A DNA stretch of 64,000 nucleotides from Desulfobulbaceae bacterium (lineage in GTDB: Bacteria; Desulfobacterota; Desulfobulbia; Desulfobulbales; Desulfobulbaceae), in the NCBI GenBank assembly GCA_023544645.1, contig JAMJFO010000005.1, forward strand, positions 1 through 64,000. The letters are read 5' to 3'. Numbering within the stretch: the stretch's first letter is position 1; every line of letters starts with the position of its first letter. The translations under genes were made by a program, and so were the position numbers. Shown here piece by piece: positions 6,690 to 22,809 of the stretch. The notes under the pieces were generated by a model. The model saw nothing but the letters and a program-made list of their open reading frames with translations, had not been told where the DNA came from and did not search any database.

Positions 6690-7463
6690 TTATTTTCGCA
6701 CCAAACTCTTAATTTTTAATTGTATAGCCGGGACTGAAAGAAAATACCTTGCCATACTCATAAAATGGTGCCGGCGATATCCAGGGTCGGAATGGCTTTT
6801 CCTTTGCGCTTCATGCTGAACGGCAATCCCATGGCAATAAATAATGGAATACCCGGCAAGCTTCAACCGGGCGCAGATGTCCACATCTTCATAATACAGA
6901 TAATATCTCTGGTCAAACCCCTGCAACTCTGCAAAGATATGACTTGGAAAAACCATGAACATACCTGCCACCCAGTCAGGGCTTCCCGTGTTTTTTAGTA
7001 CAACTGAATTTTCTCTTCCAATCAAGGCTTTGGTAAAGATGGACAGCGGAGTGGGAAAGCGCCTCGCACTCTCTTCTATCCGTCCGTCTGCATTAATTAC
7101 CTTTGGCGCCACGAGACCCACCCCCGGCTTGAAACTGGAAAGCAAGGCAGGAAATGGGTTTTCCGGCAGGCGGATATCCGGATTGAGCACACAGAAATAC
7201 CTTCCTCTGGCTTGCGCAAAGGCTTGATTGTGGTTAGCCGAAAATCCTGAAGGTTCCTTATTCCGGATAATCCTGACAGGGCACTGGAAGGAAAAATTAT
7301 CAAGGGGCAACGTTTCTTCAATATTCAGCGTGACGATCAATTCATCTTTTACGGTGCAGTATTTTTGCAAATCAACAAGTAATTGACGCACAAGATTTCC
7401 CTGGCCATGGCTAACCACTGAAATTGAAAGCCGGGAATCATTTACGCCTTCACTTTCAATCAT
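6690..7463 (-). CDS. Family 2 glycosyltransferase (rhamnosyltransferase-like)
   Basis: This 257-residue enzyme has the GT-A fold layout of GT2 glycosyltransferases: an N-terminal nucleotide-sugar strand (SISVVSHGQG), the metal/sugar-nucleotide motif around CVLNPDIRL (about 92-100), then VGLVAPKVINADGRIEES, as in WbbL-type rhamnosyltransferases. Near the C-terminus, FDQRYYLYYEDVDICARL is the ED-containing acceptor region of this subgroup. It has no membrane segment. Its ATG overlaps the TGA of the upstream 1110-residue gene by four bases (ATGA), so the two are translationally coupled and very probably build the same glycan. The actual sugar donor is not readable from sequence. Confidence 0.85.
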   Translation of the reverse strand: MIESEGVNDSRLSISVVSHGQGNLVRQLLVDLQKYCTVKDELIVTLNIEETLPLDNFSFQCPVRIIRNKEPSGFSANHNQAFAQARGRYFCVLNPDIRLPENPFPALLSSFKPGVGLVAPKVINADGRIEESARRFPTPLSIFTKALIGRENSVVLKNTGSPDWVAGMFMVFPSHIFAELQGFDQRYYLYYEDVDICARLKLAGYSIIYCHGIAVQHEAQRKSHSDPGYRRHHFMSMARYFLSVPAIQLKIKSLVRK

Positions 7464-10400
7464 TCCTGATTTTTCCCGGCGTCCAGAATTGATTCCCGCA
7501 AAGCTTTCTCGGCGAGTTCCATGGAAAAAAGCTCCTGGATATTTTTAAAACCGGCCTGGACCAGGTCCCCCCACAAGTTCTCATCGGCATGCAGCTCTAC
7601 AACCGCCTGCGCAAATGTTTCGGCATCATCAGCAATCATTGCATTGTTCTTGTGAATCAACCCCATGCCTTCAGCCCCGATGGATGTTGTTACCACAGGC
7701 ACCCCAAAACTCATGCTCGAATTAATCTTTCCCTTGATGCCGGCGCCAAAGCGCAGCGGCGCAACCGATAGCCGCACCTCTTCAAAATATGGCTGAATAT
7801 CTTCCGCATACCCTGTAACCTGTACTTCAGGAAACTTTTTAGACCATTGTTGAATACTTTTGGGAGGATGAGCCCCTATTACATAGAACGGAACCGCACC
7901 CAACTCTTCCCGGACTTTTTCATGCACCTGCTCAAAATAGAAATTCACCGCGTCCACATTTGGCGGGTGCATGAAACTGCCTACAAACAACATACCTTTT
8001 CGCTCAGAAAATTTATTCGCTGTGGGCTCAATATCATGCAGCAGAGAAACCACATGCACCGGAATTTCAGGTGTGATTTCACGCAGCAGTGAAGATTCAG
8101 CCTCACTTACCACCCAGACTTCATCAGCTTCAGCAGCCAGTTCCATTTCTTTACATGATTGTGCGCATTCCCTCATATCAATGCTTTTTCCGGAAGAAAC
8201 CCCCTTTTCCCTGGCCTCTCTGACAAAATGCAGGTCAACAGTATCAAAGATCACTTTGGCATTAACACAGTATCGCCTGACAGACTTAATAAATTGATCG
8301 GCTACATCCCGCCGGCTCAGAATAACTGCATCAAAAGAGGGACCTCTCTCTTCTAAAAAAGATTCAATTTTCCGGACATACGGATGGCATATGGTTTCAA
8401 TCCCAATCTTTCTCAAGGCTGTGCTGTATTGCGGATGGAAACCGAGATTTTCCGCCGAGAAAGTCACCTTATATCCCATCCGGACAAAAATCTGCAGGAT
8501 GTGAAACATACGCAGCGATCCTGCATCACGATCCGGCATGGGCGTGTAAGAATCAATGACTAGAATGCGCTTCTTGTTCACTCGGTTACAGGCAAATTCA
8601 GGATCGCTGCCATGTGGTAAATGATCCTGGAGGACGATTTCCCACTTTTCCTGAAATTTTTTCCGGTTCACCACCTGATACTGCTTTGCCCCGCTGCCCA
8701 AATCCGTCCCGGATGTAATCCCTTCGAAATGAATCACTTCCGCAAATGGTTGATAAATGACTTTTTTGCCTGCAGCCCTGACACCAAAAGCCAGATCCGT
8801 GTCCTCGTAATAGGCCGGCTTGTACCGCTCATCAAACCCACCCAGATCCTGAAAAAGTTTTCGCGGCACCAGTATGCACGCGCCGGAGCAGTAATCGACC
8901 TCCCGAATGTAATTATATTCGGGCGCATCTGGATCCTGCATCCTTCCATAATTCCACCCGGAACCATCCTGCCAGATAATCCCCCCTGCTTCCTGCAATC
9001 GACCATCAGGATAGATAAGCTTTGCCCCGACCAAACCGGCATCTGGAAATTTGACAAAACCATCAAGCAGGGCATCGAGCCAATCCGGACAAACGATGGT
9101 GTCGTTATTGAGAAAAAGCAGGTATTCTCCTTTTGCCGCTTCTGCCCCTGCATTACATGATCCGATAAACCCGGAATTTGCATCATTGCGAATCAACCGA
9201 ATGCCAGAAACGTATTCTCCGATATTTTGCGTCAGGTCTGTTGAACAGTCATCAACCACAATGACTTCATACTCGCCCGACGTTTCTTGAAGAATGGACT
9301 TAAGGCAGGCAAATGTGTATTCGAACTTATTGTAAACCGGTATGATTATTGATACTTTTGGCTGTCTTGCGAGAGGAAGTTCAATATTGGCCAAATCGTC
9401 AAGTGTCGGTTCAGGATGTCCTTGTCGGCTTTTAATTTCAAAGGGCGGCTGCTGGAGACGAAGAGCTACCTGTTTGAGGAGAAAACCGGCGCCATGCTGC
9501 CTCAGCATTTGCCACGAGAGAGAGATCCTTCGTTTATCGATCCGCAGCGCTCCAGGCGAAAATTCCTTGAGCAGACGAAAACCGGCCCTGAAAGGACGGG
9601 TTACCTTCCAACTGTACGTGGAATGAACGTAATCAAGCCACGCCTGAGCCTCATCCCGCTGTGCAATTACACTCAAGATATCATGCTGTAGATTTTTTTC
9701 CACTGATTTGAGCCGCTTGCAATCCTCCTCTGCCTTTTGCAATCCATCCTCTGCCTTTTGCAATCCATCCTCTGCTTTTTGCAACCTCTCTTCCAGCCCT
9801 TCTTTGATATTTTCCGTCTCAATCAGCTTATTCCGCCACAGCATTTTCCTTTGCGTTTCAACCAGCGCAGAGCCCATGAGCATCGGATCCGGGGCCGAGG
9901 GCACATGTTCAGACAAAAATTGCGCTATATTTTCAGCACTGGAACGAGGGCCTGCAATTATCGATATGAATTGCTGGAACTTTTTGGCGATGTCATCTAT
10001 TGCGTCCCAACGCGTTTGATTGTCTTCCCCCGAAGATAACAAACCATAAAGTTCATACACCAATGGCTTTATTGCGGCTGCGTCTCCGGAATAGCCCTCT
10101 TTCCTTTTCTGGTGGCACAGTCCCGGGTCCAGAAATTCCTCAATCGCCGATGCGGCGTCATCAAACGCTACCGGCCAGCTGATCCGCAAAGTTTGTTGAA
10201 TATGGCCGACCACGCAGCGCCAGTCCGCCAGCAAATCATTATATGTCACCCAAACCCGGGTCATTTCCCTGGAATTCCTCTCTGCATCGAGAACATATCT
10301 GATCCAGAGCAACAGGCCGTAATAGAGGGGAAAACCTTCCCGGGCATGAAGCGAGAGGGCAACTTCCATGGGATCTCTTACAATGAGCACAGCCCTTGCT

Positions 10401-10792
10401 TCGGCACCTGCCGCTTTTAAGGACTCCTTATATACCGGAAGCAGGCGGCACAACCTGGGATCTTTCAACCCCCACAAATCAGAGGTGCCAAACTCAGTTT
10501 CAAGGACCTTGACAATCTCGTCTCTAATGGGAAAAACCCGCTCACTCTGACTCCAGTTTTCGGGCAACTCCCCAATGTCATCCCATCGCAGCCCGAATCC
10601 GGCGAGCAACTCATCGTTGAGCGCGACAATTTCGGCCTCTTCCCAGAAACCTTTTATATTATCCGGCTTAGCCGCCATCAGATTCCGCCCCAGGTCAACC
10701 CCCAAAAGATTGAGGGTTCGTGCCAGCGCGGACGTACCGCTTCTGTGCATTCCAAGGACGAATATCGATAGATTATTCAAAAAGCCCTCCAT
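7460..10792 (-). CDS. Trifunctional sulfotransferase - GT2 - GT-B glycosyltransferase fusion
   Basis: The 1110-residue protein carries three enzyme-like parts. Residues about 8-300 are a sulfotransferase with the P-loop LGMHRSGTSAL and the second motif VRDPMEVALS. Residues about 310-400 are a coiled coil including a tandem heptad repeat, leading to a segment containing SWKVTRPFR that often precedes GT2 domains. Residues about 473-720 are a GT2 domain (VSIIIPVYNK, VVDDCS, FLNNDT, and YYEDTDLAF). Residues about 740-1105 are a GT-B type domain (VIDSYTPMPDRDAGS, LFVGSFMHPPN, APLRFGAGIKGK, FGVPVVTT). It would both sulfate and glycosylate a surface glycan in the cytoplasm. The next gene overlaps its stop by four bases. 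Confidence 0.85.
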   Translation of the reverse strand: MEGFLNNLSIFVLGMHRSGTSALARTLNLLGVDLGRNLMAAKPDNIKGFWEEAEIVALNDELLAGFGLRWDDIGELPENWSQSERVFPIRDEIVKVLETEFGTSDLWGLKDPRLCRLLPVYKESLKAAGAEARAVLIVRDPMEVALSLHAREGFPLYYGLLLWIRYVLDAERNSREMTRVWVTYNDLLADWRCVVGHIQQTLRISWPVAFDDAASAIEEFLDPGLCHQKRKEGYSGDAAAIKPLVYELYGLLSSGEDNQTRWDAIDDIAKKFQQFISIIAGPRSSAENIAQFLSEHVPSAPDPMLMGSALVETQRKMLWRNKLIETENIKEGLEERLQKAEDGLQKAEDGLQKAEEDCKRLKSVEKNLQHDILSVIAQRDEAQAWLDYVHSTYSWKVTRPFRAGFRLLKEFSPGALRIDKRRISLSWQMLRQHGAGFLLKQVALRLQQPPFEIKSRQGHPEPTLDDLANIELPLARQPKVSIIIPVYNKFEYTFACLKSILQETSGEYEVIVVDDCSTDLTQNIGEYVSGIRLIRNDANSGFIGSCNAGAEAAKGEYLLFLNNDTIVCPDWLDALLDGFVKFPDAGLVGAKLIYPDGRLQEAGGIIWQDGSGWNYGRMQDPDAPEYNYIREVDYCSGACILVPRKLFQDLGGFDERYKPAYYEDTDLAFGVRAAGKKVIYQPFAEVIHFEGITSGTDLGSGAKQYQVVNRKKFQEKWEIVLQDHLPHGSDPEFACNRVNKKRILVIDSYTPMPDRDAGSLRMFHILQIFVRMGYKVTFSAENLGFHPQYSTALRKIGIETICHPYVRKIESFLEERGPSFDAVILSRRDVADQFIKSVRRYCVNAKVIFDTVDLHFVREAREKGVSSGKSIDMRECAQSCKEMELAAEADEVWVVSEAESSLLREITPEIPVHVVSLLHDIEPTANKFSERKGMLFVGSFMHPPNVDAVNFYFEQVHEKVREELGAVPFYVIGAHPPKSIQQWSKKFPEVQVTGYAEDIQPYFEEVRLSVAPLRFGAGIKGKINSSMSFGVPVVTTSIGAEGMGLIHKNNAMIADDAETFAQAVVELHADENLWGDLVQAGFKNIQELFSMELAEKALRESILDAGKNQE
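9726..9788 (-). repeat. 21-bp tandem repeat encoding heptads inside the fusion protein
   Basis: Two exact 21-bp units (9726-9746 and 9747-9767) and one diverged unit (9768-9788) encode LQKAEDG-type heptads in the coiled-coil linker between the sulfotransferase and GT2 domains. The exactness at DNA level indicates recent slippage expansion, and copy number may vary between strains. Confidence 0.85.
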
Positions 10793-14184: not shown

Positions 14185-15045
14185 TCATTCAGCATTTTCA
14201 GGGAGGGGTTGAGTAACCTCGCTCAAGGGGTCAAACATGTCCGAGTTTTCTCTTTTCATATCCAACTGCCGCTGGTTCTCCCTCAGGACAGAGTAGGGGG
14301 CCCCGCTCAGGGGATCAACAACATCTCCGCGTTCTCTTTGCTCGTCCAGCTTCGCCTGGTTCTCCTTTAGGGTAGCGATCGGCACTTCGCTCAACGGGTC
14401 GACAGCATCCGGCTCCTCTCTTTGCCGGTCCACTTCGGCCTGGCTTTCACTGATCCCCGGATATGATGCGCCGCTGAAGGGATCAAGGGCATCGGGATCG
14501 GTCAACTGTTTTTTCATCTCAGCCAACTGCTGTTCCTGCAGCTCCCGCAACGTTGCGTACGGAATACCGCTCAACGGTTCAATGGCGCCTGGATCTTCAG
14601 CCTGGGTGGCGGATAATTCATCCCCGGATACGGAAACAAAATTACCTTCACCCCCGGACCGACCTAAATTCTCGCCAAACCCCCGAACTGTCGCTATTTG
14701 CGCATTGTCGTCATATACAACGGAAACATTATATTTTTTCAAGGCTCGGCGCAAAAACTCGTCAATGGACAAGTCCCAATAGACACCTTGAATGTTAAGC
14801 TGAGCCAACTCCTCGCTGACATACACCTTGTATCCGGTCTGCCGATAAATCTCTGTTAATGCCTCCTGCAGGGGGACCTGCTGGTTAAAGGCAACCCTGA
14901 TATTCTTCTGGTCCAGCTTTTCCGCCTGGGACGGCGTTTGACCCGCGACCACCAGCCCCGCGACCAACAACGTCAAAACACTTAATCGTCCCCAACAGAT
15001 AAAAAACTTCCGAATTGTATCGTTCAACACAACAGTACCTCTCAT
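14185..15045 (-). CDS. Secreted STN-domain protein with C-terminal DPLSG repeats
   Basis: The 286-residue product has a Sec signal peptide (hydrophobic core 20-35, cleavage near residue 41). An STN-like domain (about 47-120) is of the type found at the N-terminus of secretins and TonB receptors: VPLQEALTEIYRQTGYKVYV, then QGVYWDLSIDEFLRRAL. The rest (about 150-286) consists of five imperfect repeats of 28-32 residues centred on DPLSG-x-PYATL-x-ENQ with charged helices between them; the last is truncated. No membrane or barrel domain follows, so this is a stand-alone periplasmic STN protein. It is 37 bases downstream of the subtilase gene and probably co-transcribed with it. The function is unknown; a protein-binding or docking role is a guess. 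Confidence 0.75.
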   Translation of the reverse strand: MRGTVVLNDTIRKFFICWGRLSVLTLLVAGLVVAGQTPSQAEKLDQKNIRVAFNQQVPLQEALTEIYRQTGYKVYVSEELAQLNIQGVYWDLSIDEFLRRALKKYNVSVVYDDNAQIATVRGFGENLGRSGGEGNFVSVSGDELSATQAEDPGAIEPLSGIPYATLRELQEQQLAEMKKQLTDPDALDPFSGASYPGISESQAEVDRQREEPDAVDPLSEVPIATLKENQAKLDEQRERGDVVDPLSGAPYSVLRENQRQLDMKRENSDMFDPLSEVTQPLPENAE

Positions 15046-15082
15046 ATCTTTTTAGATTTTCTTCACCATGACACATTTATTT

Positions 15083-16912
15083 TCATTTCCGCAACAGCAA
15101 AAACCTGATGCCGGGGTTTATTATACCGAACATCAAATCCATCACTCGCTCCGCCATTACAAGTCCATGGCCGGAATCTCGATCCCAGCCGGGCGCCTCT
15201 ATATCAAAGGATGAATTAATAAAGGCCTGGCGTGCCTGGGCAACGGTCAAATCCGGTTTGCCGGAGAGCATCAGGGCGGCGATGGCCGCGGCATGCGACG
15301 CGGCAGCCGAAGTTCCGCAAAATCGCGAAAACCCTGGAGTAGCAGTCCTTACACAATCGGCCGCGGCAATATCAGGCTTCAGGCGGAGAGCTCCCCCGGT
15401 GGAGGAAAAATCCAGATTAATGGGAGTGCCGTCGGGATAATAAAAAACACGCCGCGGACCATCGGAGGTGTAGGGCTCCACGTTTTCCGTGCCGGCAAAA
15501 GGTGAAGTTCTGTTTTGCGCATTAACCGCTGCTACAGCGAACGCATCAACCGCCGCCGGATGCCCCCAAATCTGCCCGTCCGTCACGTGTACAAGTCGCC
15601 CGCTGTTGGCGCTGAGATGAAGGAACCGGTTCTGGCCGTTAAATCTTGCTACAACCAGGTGATAGTTTGTCACGTCCTCTCCATCGGCCAGACAAAAACC
15701 TTCCAGGGGATCCTGAAATCCGTCCTGATACGCGGAGGATTCTCCCACAACAGTTGTGCCGGTGGGATCCAGCAGATACAGGTCATAATCATTGTTGGAG
15801 GCGCCAAGGGGATCGGACCAGAACAGGGTATAGCAGCCGGCATCCCGGGTGATCCGGTTTGTCCAGTCTCCACCCCCGAAATCATGCACCTCGGCGAGCT
15901 GCCCATCAATAACTATTGAATATGGACGATAATCCCCCTCCCATACACCCGAGGTGCCGTCATTCAGGTTGCCGCCGTTGCCGGCCGCGGAGAAATAGAG
16001 GACACCCTGGGAGGTAACGGTATTGACGGCCCGGGAGATGATATCATCCTGGAAGGGCGATTCATCCAGGTAGCCGACATCATCAACGATGACGTCGCAG
16101 CCGGCATTTGCCAGAGCCTTGATATTGCTGGCAAAACTCGCTTTGCCGTTCCAGGCGGTGGCAAAATAGAGTCGCGCGTCCGGAGCCAGGTCATGGATGA
16201 TCTCCAACATTGCCGTGCCTTCACCACTATTGCCGGGGGCATTTTGCAGCACCGTCACACCGGGCAGATCCCCCAGCGACTGCACATAGGAGAGATAATC
16301 CACGGAATCGGACAATACACCGACCTTGATCCCCTGGCCTGTTTTGATATTTTTACCGGTCAGGGAATATTTTTTTCTTGCCGTGTCAGCGCCATGGGCA
16401 ATATCCCCTTCGCTGGTATCGGCCTTGCGCAGAAATGGCCGGGATGCCTGGCGGATGGAATGCACATCGCCTCCTTCAGCCAATGATTCCATGGCCTCCA
16501 GCGGCAGGCGGGCGCGGATGGCGCCATATTCCGCGTGGGAGCTGATGACCTCGCCGCCCAGCCAGGCAATTTCTCCAAGCAGTTGGGGAGACACATCCGC
16601 CTTGATGTCAACCAGGACCGTATCATCCACCGCGACCCGGACCATGGGGTCAAGGGAAGGAAGCTGCCGCAGAGCGGGATCACCGCGGCGCAGCTTGATC
16701 GTGTGCACAAGCTGGGAGCTCATTTTCCGCTGGGCCGCGGTCCTTGATCTCTTTTCCTCTCCCAGCAGTTTGATCTGGTTCACCACCCTGGCGCTCAATG
16801 TTGGCGGTGTTCCCTTGCCGCCCTGTGCGCAAACGTCCGCACCCGCAACCAGTACTGATGACGCTGCCAGCAGAAGCAACAAGGACAAATATCGTGTGAA
16901 TTTCAGAACCAT
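15083..16912 (-). CDS. Secreted subtilase-family (S8) protease with Glu at the His position
   Basis: The 609-residue protein has a signal peptide (hydrophobic core 8-22), a prodomain-like region to about 190 and an S8 fold. Asp202 is in GVLSDSVDY, the oxyanion Asn312 in SAAGNGG and Ser535 in CGTSAAASH. At the place where classic subtilisins have GHGT it reads GEGTAMLEIIHDLAP, so Glu231 replaces the catalytic His; His240 lies nearby. A Ser-Glu-Asp arrangement recalls sedolisins (S53). An insert (about 335-450) looks like a beta-sandwich carrying a DYDLYLLDP motif, seen in pre-peptidase C-terminal-type domains. It is encoded directly upstream of the STN-repeat protein. Activity against peptides is probable but not certain. 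Confidence 0.82.
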   Translation of the reverse strand: MVLKFTRYLSLLLLLAASSVLVAGADVCAQGGKGTPPTLSARVVNQIKLLGEEKRSRTAAQRKMSSQLVHTIKLRRGDPALRQLPSLDPMVRVAVDDTVLVDIKADVSPQLLGEIAWLGGEVISSHAEYGAIRARLPLEAMESLAEGGDVHSIRQASRPFLRKADTSEGDIAHGADTARKKYSLTGKNIKTGQGIKVGVLSDSVDYLSYVQSLGDLPGVTVLQNAPGNSGEGTAMLEIIHDLAPDARLYFATAWNGKASFASNIKALANAGCDVIVDDVGYLDESPFQDDIISRAVNTVTSQGVLYFSAAGNGGNLNDGTSGVWEGDYRPYSIVIDGQLAEVHDFGGGDWTNRITRDAGCYTLFWSDPLGASNNDYDLYLLDPTGTTVVGESSAYQDGFQDPLEGFCLADGEDVTNYHLVVARFNGQNRFLHLSANSGRLVHVTDGQIWGHPAAVDAFAVAAVNAQNRTSPFAGTENVEPYTSDGPRRVFYYPDGTPINLDFSSTGGALRLKPDIAAADCVRTATPGFSRFCGTSAAASHAAAIAALMLSGKPDLTVAQARQAFINSSFDIEAPGWDRDSGHGLVMAERVMDLMFGIINPGIRFLLLRK

Positions 16913-17946: not shown

Positions 17947-19302
17947 TTAAACCAGCCCCTGGTCGAGCATGGCATTCACTACCTTGACAAATCCGGCAAT
18001 ATTGGCGCCGGCAAGGTAATTTCCTTCCAAACCGTACTCTGCGGCGCTGTTTAAACAGGTACGGTGAATTCGTTTCATTATCTGCTGCAACCGCTGGTCA
18101 ACCTCTTCCCGCGGCCAATGCAGGCGCATGGAGTTCTGGGCCATTTCCAGGCCGGACACAGCCACGCCTCCGGCATTTGCCGCCTTGCCCGGCCCGTAGA
18201 GTATCCTGTTGTCAAGAAACACCTTAACCGCGCCCGGGGTGGAAGGCATGTTGGCCCCTTCACAGACCAGACTCACCCCGCTGTTGACCAGATTCTGCGC
18301 GTCCTTTTCATTTATCTCGTTCTGGGTGGCGCAGGGAAACGCGCAATCCGCATGGTGCGCCCAGAGAGGATTATGATCCAGCTCCGGGTCCACTTCCACA
18401 TACACCGCCCGGGGATACTTGCCGGCGTACTCCCGTATCCGGCCGCGCCTGATGTTCTTGAGATGCATGACATATGCCAGTTTATCCCGGTCAAGGCCTT
18501 CCTCGTCAAACACATAGCCGGACGAATCGGACAGGGTGACCACCCGGCCGCCGAGCTCAAGTATCTTCTCCACGGCAAACTGGGCCACATTGCCGGAACC
18601 GGAGACCAGGCAGGTCCTGCCTTCCAGGGTCTGCTCCCGGATTGCCAGCATTTCCGCGGCAAAGTAGACCATACCGTACCCGGTGGATTCCGGACGAATC
18701 AGGCTGCCTCCCCAGTCAAGGCTTTTGCCGGTGAGCACCCCGGTGAATTCGTTCCTCAGCTTCTTGTACATGCCGAAGAGGTAGCCGATCTCCCGGGACC
18801 CTACCCCGATATCGCCTGCCGGAATATCGGTATTGGACCCGATATGCCGCTGCAACTCCGCCATGAAATTCTGGCAGAAGCGCATGACTTCTCCGTCCGA
18901 GCGTCCCTTGGGGTTGAAATCCGAGCCCCCTTTGCCTCCGCCCATGGACAAGGTGGTGAGGCTGTTCTTGAAAACCTGTTCAAAGGCGAGAAACTTGATA
19001 ATCGACAGGGTGACGGACGGATGGAAGCGAAGCCCGCCCTTGTAGGGACCGATGGCGGAATTCATCTCGACCCGGAATCCCCGGTTGACATGCACCTGCC
19101 CCTGGTCGTCATTCCAGGGCACCCGGAACATGATCACCCGTTCCGGCTCGGTGATCCTCTCCATAACCGCCTGGCGGCGAAACTCGGGATTGCGGTCGAG
19201 AACCGGACGCACCGACTGCATTACCTCCTGGACGGCCTGGTGGAATTCCTTTTCCTGGGGATCACGCTGCACTATGGAAGAAAAAATGGTTTCCATGACC
19301 AA
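17947..19302 (-). CDS. gdhA: NADP-type glutamate dehydrogenase
   Basis: The hexameric enzyme aminates 2-oxoglutarate to glutamate with NADPH in the cytoplasm. The 451-residue length is typical of the bacterial 50-kDa class. KGGLRFHP and GGGKGGSDFNPKG carry the substrate-binding and catalytic lysines, and PAGDIGVGSREIGYLFGMYKKL follows as in the E. coli class. The Rossmann motif appears as VSGSGNVAQFAVEK. Residues FPCATQNEINEKDA and NAGGVAVSGLEMAQNS are further signatures. It lies 16 bases downstream of the receiver/PEP-synthase-like gene on the same strand and may be co-transcribed with it. Confidence 0.95.
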   Translation of the reverse strand: MVMETIFSSIVQRDPQEKEFHQAVQEVMQSVRPVLDRNPEFRRQAVMERITEPERVIMFRVPWNDDQGQVHVNRGFRVEMNSAIGPYKGGLRFHPSVTLSIIKFLAFEQVFKNSLTTLSMGGGKGGSDFNPKGRSDGEVMRFCQNFMAELQRHIGSNTDIPAGDIGVGSREIGYLFGMYKKLRNEFTGVLTGKSLDWGGSLIRPESTGYGMVYFAAEMLAIREQTLEGRTCLVSGSGNVAQFAVEKILELGGRVVTLSDSSGYVFDEEGLDRDKLAYVMHLKNIRRGRIREYAGKYPRAVYVEVDPELDHNPLWAHHADCAFPCATQNEINEKDAQNLVNSGVSLVCEGANMPSTPGAVKVFLDNRILYGPGKAANAGGVAVSGLEMAQNSMRLHWPREEVDQRLQQIMKRIHRTCLNSAAEYGLEGNYLAGANIAGFVKVVNAMLDQGLV

Positions 19303-19318: not shown

Positions 19319-22300
19319 TCATTTCCCGCCACCATCACCCGCATCAAGCACAACAGCCTGGGAAGTATGTCCGTCCGCCTTGAGGATGAATGGCTTCTTC
19401 AGCCGGACATGGCAGACATGCTCGGTTTCCTCTACTATTTCACGGCTCGTGAGCCAGGACCAGTCAAGACTCCCGGCCATTTCCGGCGCATCCTGGCCAT
19501 TCATCATATTTTCTTGCACCATCAGGTAGGGAATGCCCAGGGAGGTTATGTTGTGAAAGAAGTGCGCCCCCTGGGAAGGCTCCGCCGTGACACCGCGGCC
19601 CTGTATTTCAACAATCGCCCCGCTGGCGGAAATATCGTGCCACTTGACCGGGATCCCGAGCCAGGGGTCGGCGGTTCCCCACCTGCCGAACCCGACCAGA
19701 AGCATCTTCCTGCCCTCCCTGGCCAGCGAACGGTTCATCCGGCTAATCTCAGAGGCAATATCCCTGGTCGCTGCCGCATCAAAGTTTTCCGGCTTCACGT
19801 ACAGGATGTCGGCCATGGACTGGAACATGCCGTGGCCCAATGCCCGGGCGGAATAGATCACTGCCGCGGCCCGGTCATCCCCGCTTATGGCCACCTCCCT
19901 GCTTTCGCCGGCAGCGGCAATGGGGCGGATCTGGAGAAAGGAGAAAGTACTCTTGGCGGGATCGTCGGCAAGATCCAGGGCAAACTCTATCTCCACTTCA
20001 CTGCCCAACCCCTCCCGGCCCAGAGCAACAAGCTCATTCATGATTCCGGACAGGGGGAAAAAATTATGCTTGAGCAATGCGGCAAAAGTCAGGATCTTGG
20101 GCCCGGGCTGATCAACGTCACGCACCCGCTGTTCTTCGGGGAAATAGGTGCTGGACAGGAACCGGACCGGATATTCGTCAGCCGCGTCATCCAGCTCCCG
20201 GCGGACCAGGTTGGAGTTTTCGGGAAAAAAGGAGGCTGAAGCGCCGCAGTCCAGGCTGTAAAACCAGCGCTGAGTGTTCTTCAGCATATCCTCGGCAGTG
20301 GACATGTGGGGAAGATTTTCCGGATATTTGGGGGAAAAGCGCAGGCTGCGCTCCCCTTCCACCACTGTTTTGCCGAACCCGAGGGCGATGTGGGCTATGC
20401 CATCCTCCTGCTTCATGGGAGCAAGGGGATAAAAATTATAGCTCTGGATCGTCCCGGAGATGGCCGGGTAAAAATGGTCTCCATACCGACCGCCGGCCAG
20501 CCGCTGAATGATCACGGCCATGGCGTCTTCATTCTGCTGGTTGATGGAGCGGGAAAAGGAGCGGGGCCCTTCAAACCAGGTTGACGCATAGACCAGCTTG
20601 ACCGCCCGGACCAGCTGGCTGAAACGCACGGCAAAATCAGGATCCGCATTGGCCAGCATGTAGGTGCTGTACAACCCCGCATAGGGCATGGCTTGAGCAT
20701 CTTCGAGCATGCTGGACGAGCGGACGGAGAGGGGATGGCCGGTCTGTGCGAGGTATGCCCGCAGATCTTCAAGAAGCCATTCTGGCATCTCCGCGCTCTC
20801 GAAACGGTGCGCGATCTCCGCATCGCTCAGCTCATCATCAGGATGCAGGTGATTATGGGTGATGAAATCATCAAAACCTTCGGTGGTTATCACGCAGGTC
20901 CGGGGCACATGGACCCTGCCCCCGGACAAAAGGGAGTCCTGATGCCCCGGCCGCTGCAACTGCGAGCTGATAAAGGCTATCCCCCTGGCCTTGCCGCCCA
21001 TAGACCCCTGCCCGATCCTGACAAAATCAGTCACTTCCGGATCAAACCCCTCCCGCAGGAACTGGGTCACAATCCCCTTCTGCCTGAGCCGGCGCAGCGC
21101 GTGCACCTTGAAAAGGATATCCTCCCGCAGGCACGCCGGGTCATCGACCCCGGTAAAATAACGCCTGTTCAAACGCGAGGCAAGGGCGATCTCGGCCCTG
21201 GCCATCACCCAGTGGGAAAAATGATTGCGCCGGGCATGGTACATCAGGGAGTCGTCAGGTATTGCGCGCAGCATTTGTTCAAACTCGAACAGGTTTGACG
21301 CCCTGCCGATCTCCGCACCGTCCGGCAGCCGGAAAATAAAGTCCCCGAAACCAAGATAGTTGAGAAAAAAACCGTGAATGTCCTCCCTGATGGTTGCCGC
21401 ATCCTTCAAAACGAACATTGCCTGCATGGACAGGGCCTTTTCTTTGTTCTGTGCATCAGCACTCATGACCAGAACAGGCAGATCGCGCACTTCCCGGCGG
21501 ATTTCCGTTATCAGCATGATGCCGGCATCCTCGGTCGCTCTTCCTCCCCTGGCAAAACGGACATCCGTCAGCAGGGCGTAGAGAGTATGCCGATACCTGG
21601 TAACAAGATCCATGGCCTCCTCGTACGAACCGGCAACAAGGATCTTCGGCCGGGCACGCATCTTGAGCAGCCGGTGCTGATCGTTGAGCCCCTCATCCAG
21701 CACGGCCTGGGTCTGCCTGACAACCTCATGGTACAGGATGGGCAGGATCCGAGACCGGTGGACGGGAGAATCCTCCACGTACAGAATCACCCGGACCATG
21801 GCCCTGGCGGTGTCGAAATCCACATTCCTGCGGTCCTCGACGCTCTTGACAATGGCCATCAGGATACTGGAGTCGCAGCACCAGATATACCTGTCGTCAA
21901 TGACGCAGGGTTCTTTATCCTCCATGCTCTGTTCGGCATCCCTGGGATTACGCGCCAGCAGAATAACCGGCGTCTGCGGATATCGCTTTTTGACTTTGCC
22001 GGCAAATGTCGCGCAGTCCATACCGCCGAAATAGGGCATGGTCAGAATAAGGTCATAGGAATTTTCCTCCAGCATCTCCAGCGCTTTTTCAACACTGGAG
22101 ACCCTGGTGATGCGGGGAGGACGGCTCAGGTTGAGGCCCCGGTACTCGTTGATGATCCGCATGGCGAGGCTGCCGTCCTCTTCCATGATATAGGCGTCAT
22201 AGGCGCTTGAAACCAGCAGGATCTCCCGCACCTTGAAGGCCATCAGGTCATAAAACACCCCGAAATGGGGATCATGGCCGCTGACGGACGGCGGCACGGA

Positions 22301-22333
22301 TGACCAGGATACCCTGCTGCGGGCCTTTTCCAT
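19319..22333 (-). CDS. Two receiver domains fused to a PEP synthase-like ATP-binding domain
   Basis: The ATG at 22333 is chosen over earlier in-frame starts because AAGGAG lies nine bases upstream and it follows the previous stop by five bases. The product has 1004 residues. Residues 36-170 resemble a receiver domain, but the expected phospho-acceptor stretch reads YDLILTMP, without the Asp. Residues 182-325 form a complete-looking receiver: acidic E187-D188, acceptor D257 in LLTDVRF, S291 and K310. From about 430 on, the protein matches the ATP-grasp N-terminal domain of PEP synthase/pyruvate phosphate dikinase (IGQGSMGGKARGIAF, LSVRSSSMLEDAQ, PYAGLYSTYM). The phosphohistidine and PEP-barrel domains of PEP synthase are not seen, so it is unlikely to make PEP. 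A signalling or regulatory phosphotransfer role is inferred. Confidence 0.85.
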   Translation of the reverse strand: MEKARSRVSWSSVPPSVSGHDPHFGVFYDLMAFKVREILLVSSAYDAYIMEEDGSLAMRIINEYRGLNLSRPPRITRVSSVEKALEMLEENSYDLILTMPYFGGMDCATFAGKVKKRYPQTPVILLARNPRDAEQSMEDKEPCVIDDRYIWCCDSSILMAIVKSVEDRRNVDFDTARAMVRVILYVEDSPVHRSRILPILYHEVVRQTQAVLDEGLNDQHRLLKMRARPKILVAGSYEEAMDLVTRYRHTLYALLTDVRFARGGRATEDAGIMLITEIRREVRDLPVLVMSADAQNKEKALSMQAMFVLKDAATIREDIHGFFLNYLGFGDFIFRLPDGAEIGRASNLFEFEQMLRAIPDDSLMYHARRNHFSHWVMARAEIALASRLNRRYFTGVDDPACLREDILFKVHALRRLRQKGIVTQFLREGFDPEVTDFVRIGQGSMGGKARGIAFISSQLQRPGHQDSLLSGGRVHVPRTCVITTEGFDDFITHNHLHPDDELSDAEIAHRFESAEMPEWLLEDLRAYLAQTGHPLSVRSSSMLEDAQAMPYAGLYSTYMLANADPDFAVRFSQLVRAVKLVYASTWFEGPRSFSRSINQQNEDAMAVIIQRLAGGRYGDHFYPAISGTIQSYNFYPLAPMKQEDGIAHIALGFGKTVVEGERSLRFSPKYPENLPHMSTAEDMLKNTQRWFYSLDCGASASFFPENSNLVRRELDDAADEYPVRFLSSTYFPEEQRVRDVDQPGPKILTFAALLKHNFFPLSGIMNELVALGREGLGSEVEIEFALDLADDPAKSTFSFLQIRPIAAAGESREVAISGDDRAAAVIYSARALGHGMFQSMADILYVKPENFDAAATRDIASEISRMNRSLAREGRKMLLVGFGRWGTADPWLGIPVKWHDISASGAIVEIQGRGVTAEPSQGAHFFHNITSLGIPYLMVQENMMNGQDAPEMAGSLDWSWLTSREIVEETEHVCHVRLKKPFILKADGHTSQAVVLDAGDGGGK

Positions 22334-22338
22334 CACTA

Positions 22339-22809
22339 TTACTCCTTCCATCTTAAATAAGGGTTTCTGACCAGGGCTGCATTGAAATATTTCGGATCGC
22401 CGGTGACTTCCCTGCCGACCCAAGCGGGCAGAGAAAACATCTGATCCTCGCGTTCAAGTTCAACTTCAGCAACGATCAGACCGCTGTTCTCCCCGAGAAA
22501 CTCATCAACCTCCCAGATCATCCCCGCATGTTCAAATGTATAGCGGTTTTTCTCAATGAGCGGTTTTTCGCACAACCGTTCCAGCATCTCCCGGGCATCA
22601 ACAACAGGTATCGCATATTCATACTCCCTGCGGGCAATGCCGGCTCCTTTTCCCTTGATGGTCAGATATCCTTTGCCGGCCATGACCCTGACCCTGACCG
22701 TGATCCCGCTTCCAGGGCAAAGATATCCCTGGCAACACCTGACAGCCTGGATGCTTTTTTTCCAGCTGCTGTCATTTACCAGGAATTTCCGTTCAATTTC
22801 TATTCCCAT
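22339..22809 (-). CDS. CYTH domain protein
   Basis: The product has 156 residues and begins MGIEIERKFLV, the E-x-E-x-K strand that binds metal and polyphosphate in CYTH (adenylate cyclase class IV / thiamine triphosphatase) enzymes. Later strands carry the usual basic and acidic residues of the tunnel fold: VRVRV, YLTIKGKG, REYEYAIP, EVDEF and VAEVELE. The ATG at 22809 is preferred to a GTG two codons earlier because GGAGG is five bases upstream. CYTH enzymes of this size hydrolyse triphosphates or short polyphosphate. The stop is five bases from the start of the receiver/PEP-synthase-like gene, so the two are co-transcribed. Confidence 0.88.
   Translation of the reverse strand: MGIEIERKFLVNDSSWKKSIQAVRCCQGYLCPGSGITVRVRVMAGKGYLTIKGKGAGIARREYEYAIPVVDAREMLERLCEKPLIEKNRYTFEHAGMIWEVDEFLGENSGLIVAEVELEREDQMFSLPAWVGREVTGDPKYFNAALVRNPYLRWKE

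Follow-up and report, generated by a model that had tools for sequence, protein, structure and literature searches.

A 64,000-nucleotide stretch of a Desulfobulbaceae genome (contig JAMJFO010000005.1, positions 1 to 64,000; hereafter, the window) encodes what is likely an active, exported and self-processing protease with a subtilisin fold, a member of a deep clade whose active site was rewired once and whose predicted catalytic residues are Ser535, Glu231 and Asp278. We further lean toward the view that this clade represents a third architecture within clan SB, structurally and biochemically uncharacterized: a Ser-Glu-Asp site with its acid on the strand that bears Ser125 in subtilisin and a second invariant Asp adjacent to it, which has a single origin in the coupled replacement of three or more residues and is spread over many phyla. 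No biochemical study or assay of a clade member was found in the open literature that we searched, and one may exist. The features of the protease and of its downstream neighbor are located in Table 1.

Table 1. Positions of the protease, its predicted catalytic residues and its STN-like neighbor in the window.
Feature	Position	Strand	Evidence
Glu-type subtilase, 609 aa, Pfam Peptidase_S8	15083..16912	-	ORF; PF00082 6.4e-16; AlphaFold pLDDT 90.3; subtilisin fold, Z 33-34
Likely signal peptide (hydrophobic N-terminus, residues 1-30)	16823..16912	-	Sequence LSLLLLLAASSVLVAGADVCAQ; low confidence in the AlphaFold model
Subtilisin-type prodomain, residues 98-161	16430..16621	-	Strands and helices of the model; aligns from residue 97 with pro-subtilisin E and pro-Tk-subtilisin
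Ser201, subtilisin Asp32 position	16310..16312	-	S in 83/83 Glu-types; D in all alignable His-types
Glu231, subtilisin His64 position, predicted general base	16220..16222	-	E in 83/83; H in all His-type sisters
Asp277-Asp278, Leu124-Ser125 positions; Asp278 predicted triad acid	16079..16084	-	Both in 83/83; His-types read x-S; position-125 geometry from PMC11593635
Asn312, subtilase-type oxyanion residue	15977..15979	-	N in 83/83; PMC11593635 table 1
Inserted beta domain, about residues 323-440	15593..15946	-	Model strands; conserved W365/D367/DYDLYL region; common to the His-type sister subfamily
Ser535, predicted nucleophile, in GTSAAA	15308..15310	-	S in 82/82 readable sequences
STN-like protein of 286 aa, secreted, stand-alone, with degenerate repeats	14185..15045	-	Neighbor; functional partnership only putative
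STN-like domain, about residues 46-120	14686..14910	-	Pfam PF07660 3.3e-4, sub-threshold; alignment with homologues
DPLSG-type repeats, five degenerate copies at 28-32 aa spacing, residues 156-276	14218..14580	-	Same repeat type in homologues

The first-pass annotation of this DNA had pointed out that the GHGT motif of subtilases is changed to GEGT, with Glu231 in place of the catalytic His, and the alignment agrees: GEGTAM carries Glu231 exactly where His-type relatives read HGT. It had also described Asp202, Asn312 and Ser535 as kept. The latter two are indeed present, but Asp202 is off register, since aligning VLSDSVD of the window protein with VLDTGID places Ser201 at the Asp32 position of subtilisin and Asp202 at the position of Thr33. 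The Asp202 column also varies among 83 Glu-type proteins (D in 78, N in four and G in one), and on both counts we rejected this residue as the catalytic acid. Asp277 and Asp278, both invariant and specific to the clade, had been overlooked. Compared with subtilisin (MEROPS S8A), which it resembles in its fold, prodomain, GTS nucleophile motif, Asn oxyanion residue and Pfam family (PF00082), the window protease differs in having Glu231 for His64, Ser201 for Asp32 and Asp278, with Asp277 beside it, for Ser125; Ser535 and the oxyanion Asn312 were retained through the swap.

Relatives were gathered with two short patterns, neither of which includes the Glu231 column. At least 523 loci in species genomes encode such relatives, and the best 80 of these are distributed over Acidobacteriota, Verrucomicrobiota, Kiritimatiellota, Actinomycetota (many of them Amycolatopsis), Pseudomonadota, Bacteroidota and others. 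The 83 Glu-type proteins that were aligned are about 45% identical to the window protein, and Ser201, Glu231, Asp241, Asp277, Asp278 and Asn312 are invariant in all of them; Ser535 is found in each of the 82 that reach its position. No other His fills the catalytic place: the best His column is occupied in 80 of the 83 proteins, and none is invariant. His540 is common to most His-type proteins, and His240 sits on the Glu231 helix. Plasmid records contributed three distant matches, of which two proved to be Glu-type when read through; phage records held no match to the protease, and no specific family was matched in NCBIfam, PHROGs or PADLOC.

The inserted domain is also carried by the nearest His-type proteins, most of which belong to the window's phylum and one to its genus, and the nearest sisters read D201, H231 and S278. 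Beyond the Glu clade, the full-length relatives closest to the window protease are subtilases of this kind (for example, L009, L028 and L172-L178), which share the flanking motifs with it but possess the classical D-H-S residues. The alignment reveals a two-state switch: S-E-D-D-N-S in every aligned Glu-type protein, one of which is truncated ahead of the Ser, and D-H-x-S-N-S in every His-type protein alignable at the motifs. Among the readable aligned sequences, no intermediate occurs. In a maximum-likelihood tree built with the motif columns left out, a single branch (support 100/99) separates all 33 Glu-type proteins from the rest. Judged from these sequences, the Glu-types are one clade with a single origin, a result that rests on the branch between the Glu-type and the ingroup His-type proteins, as the outgroup branches are long; three outgroup rows misaligned at the motifs (L012, L030 and L184) were excluded from the tree. 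The clade is large, old and apparently unstudied.

Structure prediction, one of the checks that the first-pass annotation had proposed, yielded a subtilisin fold with its prodomain. The AlphaFold model (64 sequences; pLDDT 90.3, pTM 0.89) aligned to subtilisins with Z scores of 33-34 in VIA-align, including 247 residues at 1.9 Å to BPN', prodomain included; together with the profile match of 6.4e-16, this places the protein in the subtilase fold (PF00082, clan SB). Glu231 begins a helix in the model, as the equivalent subtilisin residue does, strands span residues 274-277 and 279-281 around Asp277 and Asp278, and a flexible junction follows the prodomain at residues 165-167. A sequence search of solved structures returned no clade member, matching only ordinary subtilisin regions, mostly that of the Ser. 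No sedolisin appeared among the structural-comparison matches listed, an absence that is uninformative.

A 2024 structural survey distinguishes two arrangements only, with the catalytic acid borne either by a segment of its own, as in subtilases, or by the helix of the base, as in sedolisins (PMC11593635). According to the same survey, the active site has two halves linked by the tripeptide 123-125, residue 125 touches the nucleophile loop with its side chain, and in PCSK9 a gamma carbon at position 125 lies 3.0 Å from an oxygen of the catalytic Asp (PMC11593635). Because Asp278 is located at position 125 of subtilisin and residue 32 is reduced to Ser, the Asp278 carboxylate could occupy the site of the Asp32 carboxylate and pair with Glu231. 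In the mechanism that we propose, Ser535 would be the nucleophile and Glu231 its general base, while Asp278 would extend from its strand into the vacated Asp32 site and hydrogen-bond Glu231, playing the role of the helix-borne Asp84 in sedolisin; Asn312 would lie in the oxyanion hole, and Asp277 may structure the site or share a proton. The prodomain would be cleaved in cis at the flexible junction near residues 165-167, and activity would probably be highest at acidic or near-neutral pH.

Alternatively, the same enzyme might pair Glu231 with Asp277 as its acid, alone or jointly with Asp278. Both Asps are equally invariant and equally specific to the clade, and the preference for Asp278 comes from the alternation of side chains along a strand: in published structures, positions 123 and 125 point toward the active site and touch one another, whereas position 124 contacts residue 152 (PMC11593635 tables). 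We regard a catalytic Asp277 as unlikely on this ground.

The main competing possibility is that catalysis was lost together with the His and that the protein was kept for binding or sensing, like CspC and CspA of Clostridioides difficile. The CspC-CspA heterodimer and CspB of Clostridium perfringens head the Foldseek matches to the model, and these subtilases contain an inserted jelly roll similar to the inserted domain of the window protease; a Foldseek rank, however, tells of overall shape only. The insert does not imply a loss of activity, because it also occurs in ordinary His-type proteases. The residues differ as well, as CspB is D-H-S and none of these three Csp proteins has the Glu or the Asp-Asp pair, and whereas CspC lost both its Ser (G485) and its His (T170) (PMC6636752), Ser535 is kept in all readable sequences of the clade. 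Invariance across the clade could, taken alone, also reflect a conserved binding site in a non-enzyme. Nevertheless, loss of activity becomes less likely because the nucleophile and its GTS motif, the Asn of the oxyanion hole and the newly gained Glu and Asps never vary across many phyla, and we consider a pseudoprotease an unlikely reading of the protein.

The reading of an active Ser-Glu-Asp enzyme also invites comparison with the sedolisins, to which the first-pass annotation had likened the site. The likeness is well supported by the invariance of the residues, the coupled replacement of Asp32 and His64, the subtilisin fold and the lack of an invariant His, with an Asp other than the one originally named. 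Sedolisins and kumamolisins (family S53) share with the window protease the fold, the Glu base, the Ser nucleophile and an acid partner for the Glu. In S53, however, the acid follows four residues after the Glu on the helix (the ExxxD motif), where the window protein has Met235 and its clade Met (82 of 83) or Leu; the oxyanion residue is Asp, rather than the Asn312 found in 83 of 83; and the prodomain is of the pro-kumamolisin type, whereas the clade matches only PF00082 in Pfam (64 members), with a prodomain that aligns with pro-subtilisin E. Despite the Glu in place of His and its acidic partner, it is thus extremely improbable that the protein is a true sedolisin filed as S8, and we rejected S53 membership on account of the strand-borne acid, the Asn in the oxyanion hole and the subtilisin-type prodomain. 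His-type S8 proteins are also the nearest sequences beyond the clade.

Siezen, Renckens and Boekhorst (Proteins 2007, 67:681) reportedly described a subset of prokaryotic subtilases resembling sedolisins, with Glu at the His position and an Asp carried by a beta strand at a topologically comparable site instead of by the Glu helix. The window protease resembles the subset so described both in the Glu at the catalytic His position and in a conserved strand Asp (D277/D278) off the Glu helix. If that description is accurate, the window protease would be a further member of a kind already predicted in 2007. The conserved-domain model CDD cd05562 is presumably the one named 'Peptidases_S53_like'. 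The 2007 paper is cited by its title in PMC2605481 and PMC9549277.

If the proposed site is correct, the triad acid has moved to a second new place, and subtilisin, sedolisin and the Glu-type clade represent three catalytic solutions built on the same fold. Enzyme chemistry is taught from textbooks with subtilisins as a standard example, and the His-type sisters with the same insert provide a close comparison for reconstructing the exchange of a whole triad. An ordinary laboratory host would suffice for a direct test of the prediction that S535, E231 and D278 are needed and D202 is not.

The protease gene is followed after 37 nt, also on the minus strand, by the gene of the STN-like protein. 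A Pfam search identified an arginyl-tRNA--protein transferase gene upstream of the two genes and an apolipoprotein N-acyltransferase gene downstream. In the genome assembly of 3.85 Mb, only two subtilase genes were found besides the Glu-type one. Just upstream of the Glu-type gene, three congeners (G001, G003 and G005) carry a His-type subtilase gene of the classical kind (L034:10175-11905, L035:1031-2923 and L036:1588-3477); the window does not have this gene, which was either lost or never present.

The downstream protein had been described as a STN-domain protein with five DPLSG repeats and no secretin or receptor body. Such a body is indeed missing, and a STN-type region is common to the full-length homologues; the match to PF07660, at 20.8 bits, is below the gathering cut-off of 28.4, and the protein is STN-like by homologue alignment only. 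The five repeats are real but degenerate, conforming to [DE]P[LF]S[GE] at spacings of 32, 28, 28 and 28 aa, with DPLSG exact in only one. They do not arise by chance, as five copies occurred in none of 20,000 shuffles, in which the maximum was one. Among the members of this protein family that were tested, no Pfam repeat family was matched. The repeat unit has diverged, being of the DPLSG type with 28-32 aa spacing in the window (14185-15045) and of the DDNEVLDGGMTRGEIR type elsewhere; homologues are found at L069 and L070.

The two genes had been proposed to encode a secreted processing or signaling pair. Their shared strand and short distance fit this proposal, as does the same adjacency in congener G001. 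A search of 96 relatives and of the flanks of 80 other Glu-protease loci (the best 80 of at least 523), however, found the arrangement only in the window and in G001. The congeners G003 and G005 retain the protease with no STN match anywhere in the genome, glycosyltransferase-type genes following the protease in G005, and none of the 80 loci is flanked by a STN gene. Homologues of the STN-like protein occur in 18 of the 96 relatives (including the window genome), not all with repeats, and those with repeats are mostly in genomes without the Glu-type protease, three of them right after gspE. Because the STN gene is absent from two protease-bearing congeners and from the 80 other loci, a dedicated pair is not supported; we consider it improbable and rejected the two genes as a unit. 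The STN gene is a genus-level neighbor and probably only a local companion of the protease.

Three genomes from the same family as the window have a gene for a stand-alone STN-like protein with DPxSG-type repeats directly behind gspE (L064:8558-9229, L066:1354-2256 and L067:8677-9324), in L066 and L067 after gspD-gspE, which hints that the STN-repeat protein is an accessory of type II secretion. The gspD-gspE genes of the window genome (L199) have no adjoining STN-repeat gene. Just downstream of the STN-repeat gene, three genomes encode a protein that is small and secreted and has a YATxLTALS-type motif (L034:6485-6934, L065:9267-9635 and L070:9460-9855); the one member tested had no Pfam match.

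Further genes in the window stood out when inspected by eye. An ORF of 1110 aa (7460-10792) apparently fuses a sulfotransferase-type domain to glycosyltransferase domains. Another, of 1034 aa on the minus strand (19319-22423), apparently fuses response-regulator-type domains to a PEP-synthase-like part and is adjoined by a gene that looks like a glutamate dehydrogenase (17947-19302).
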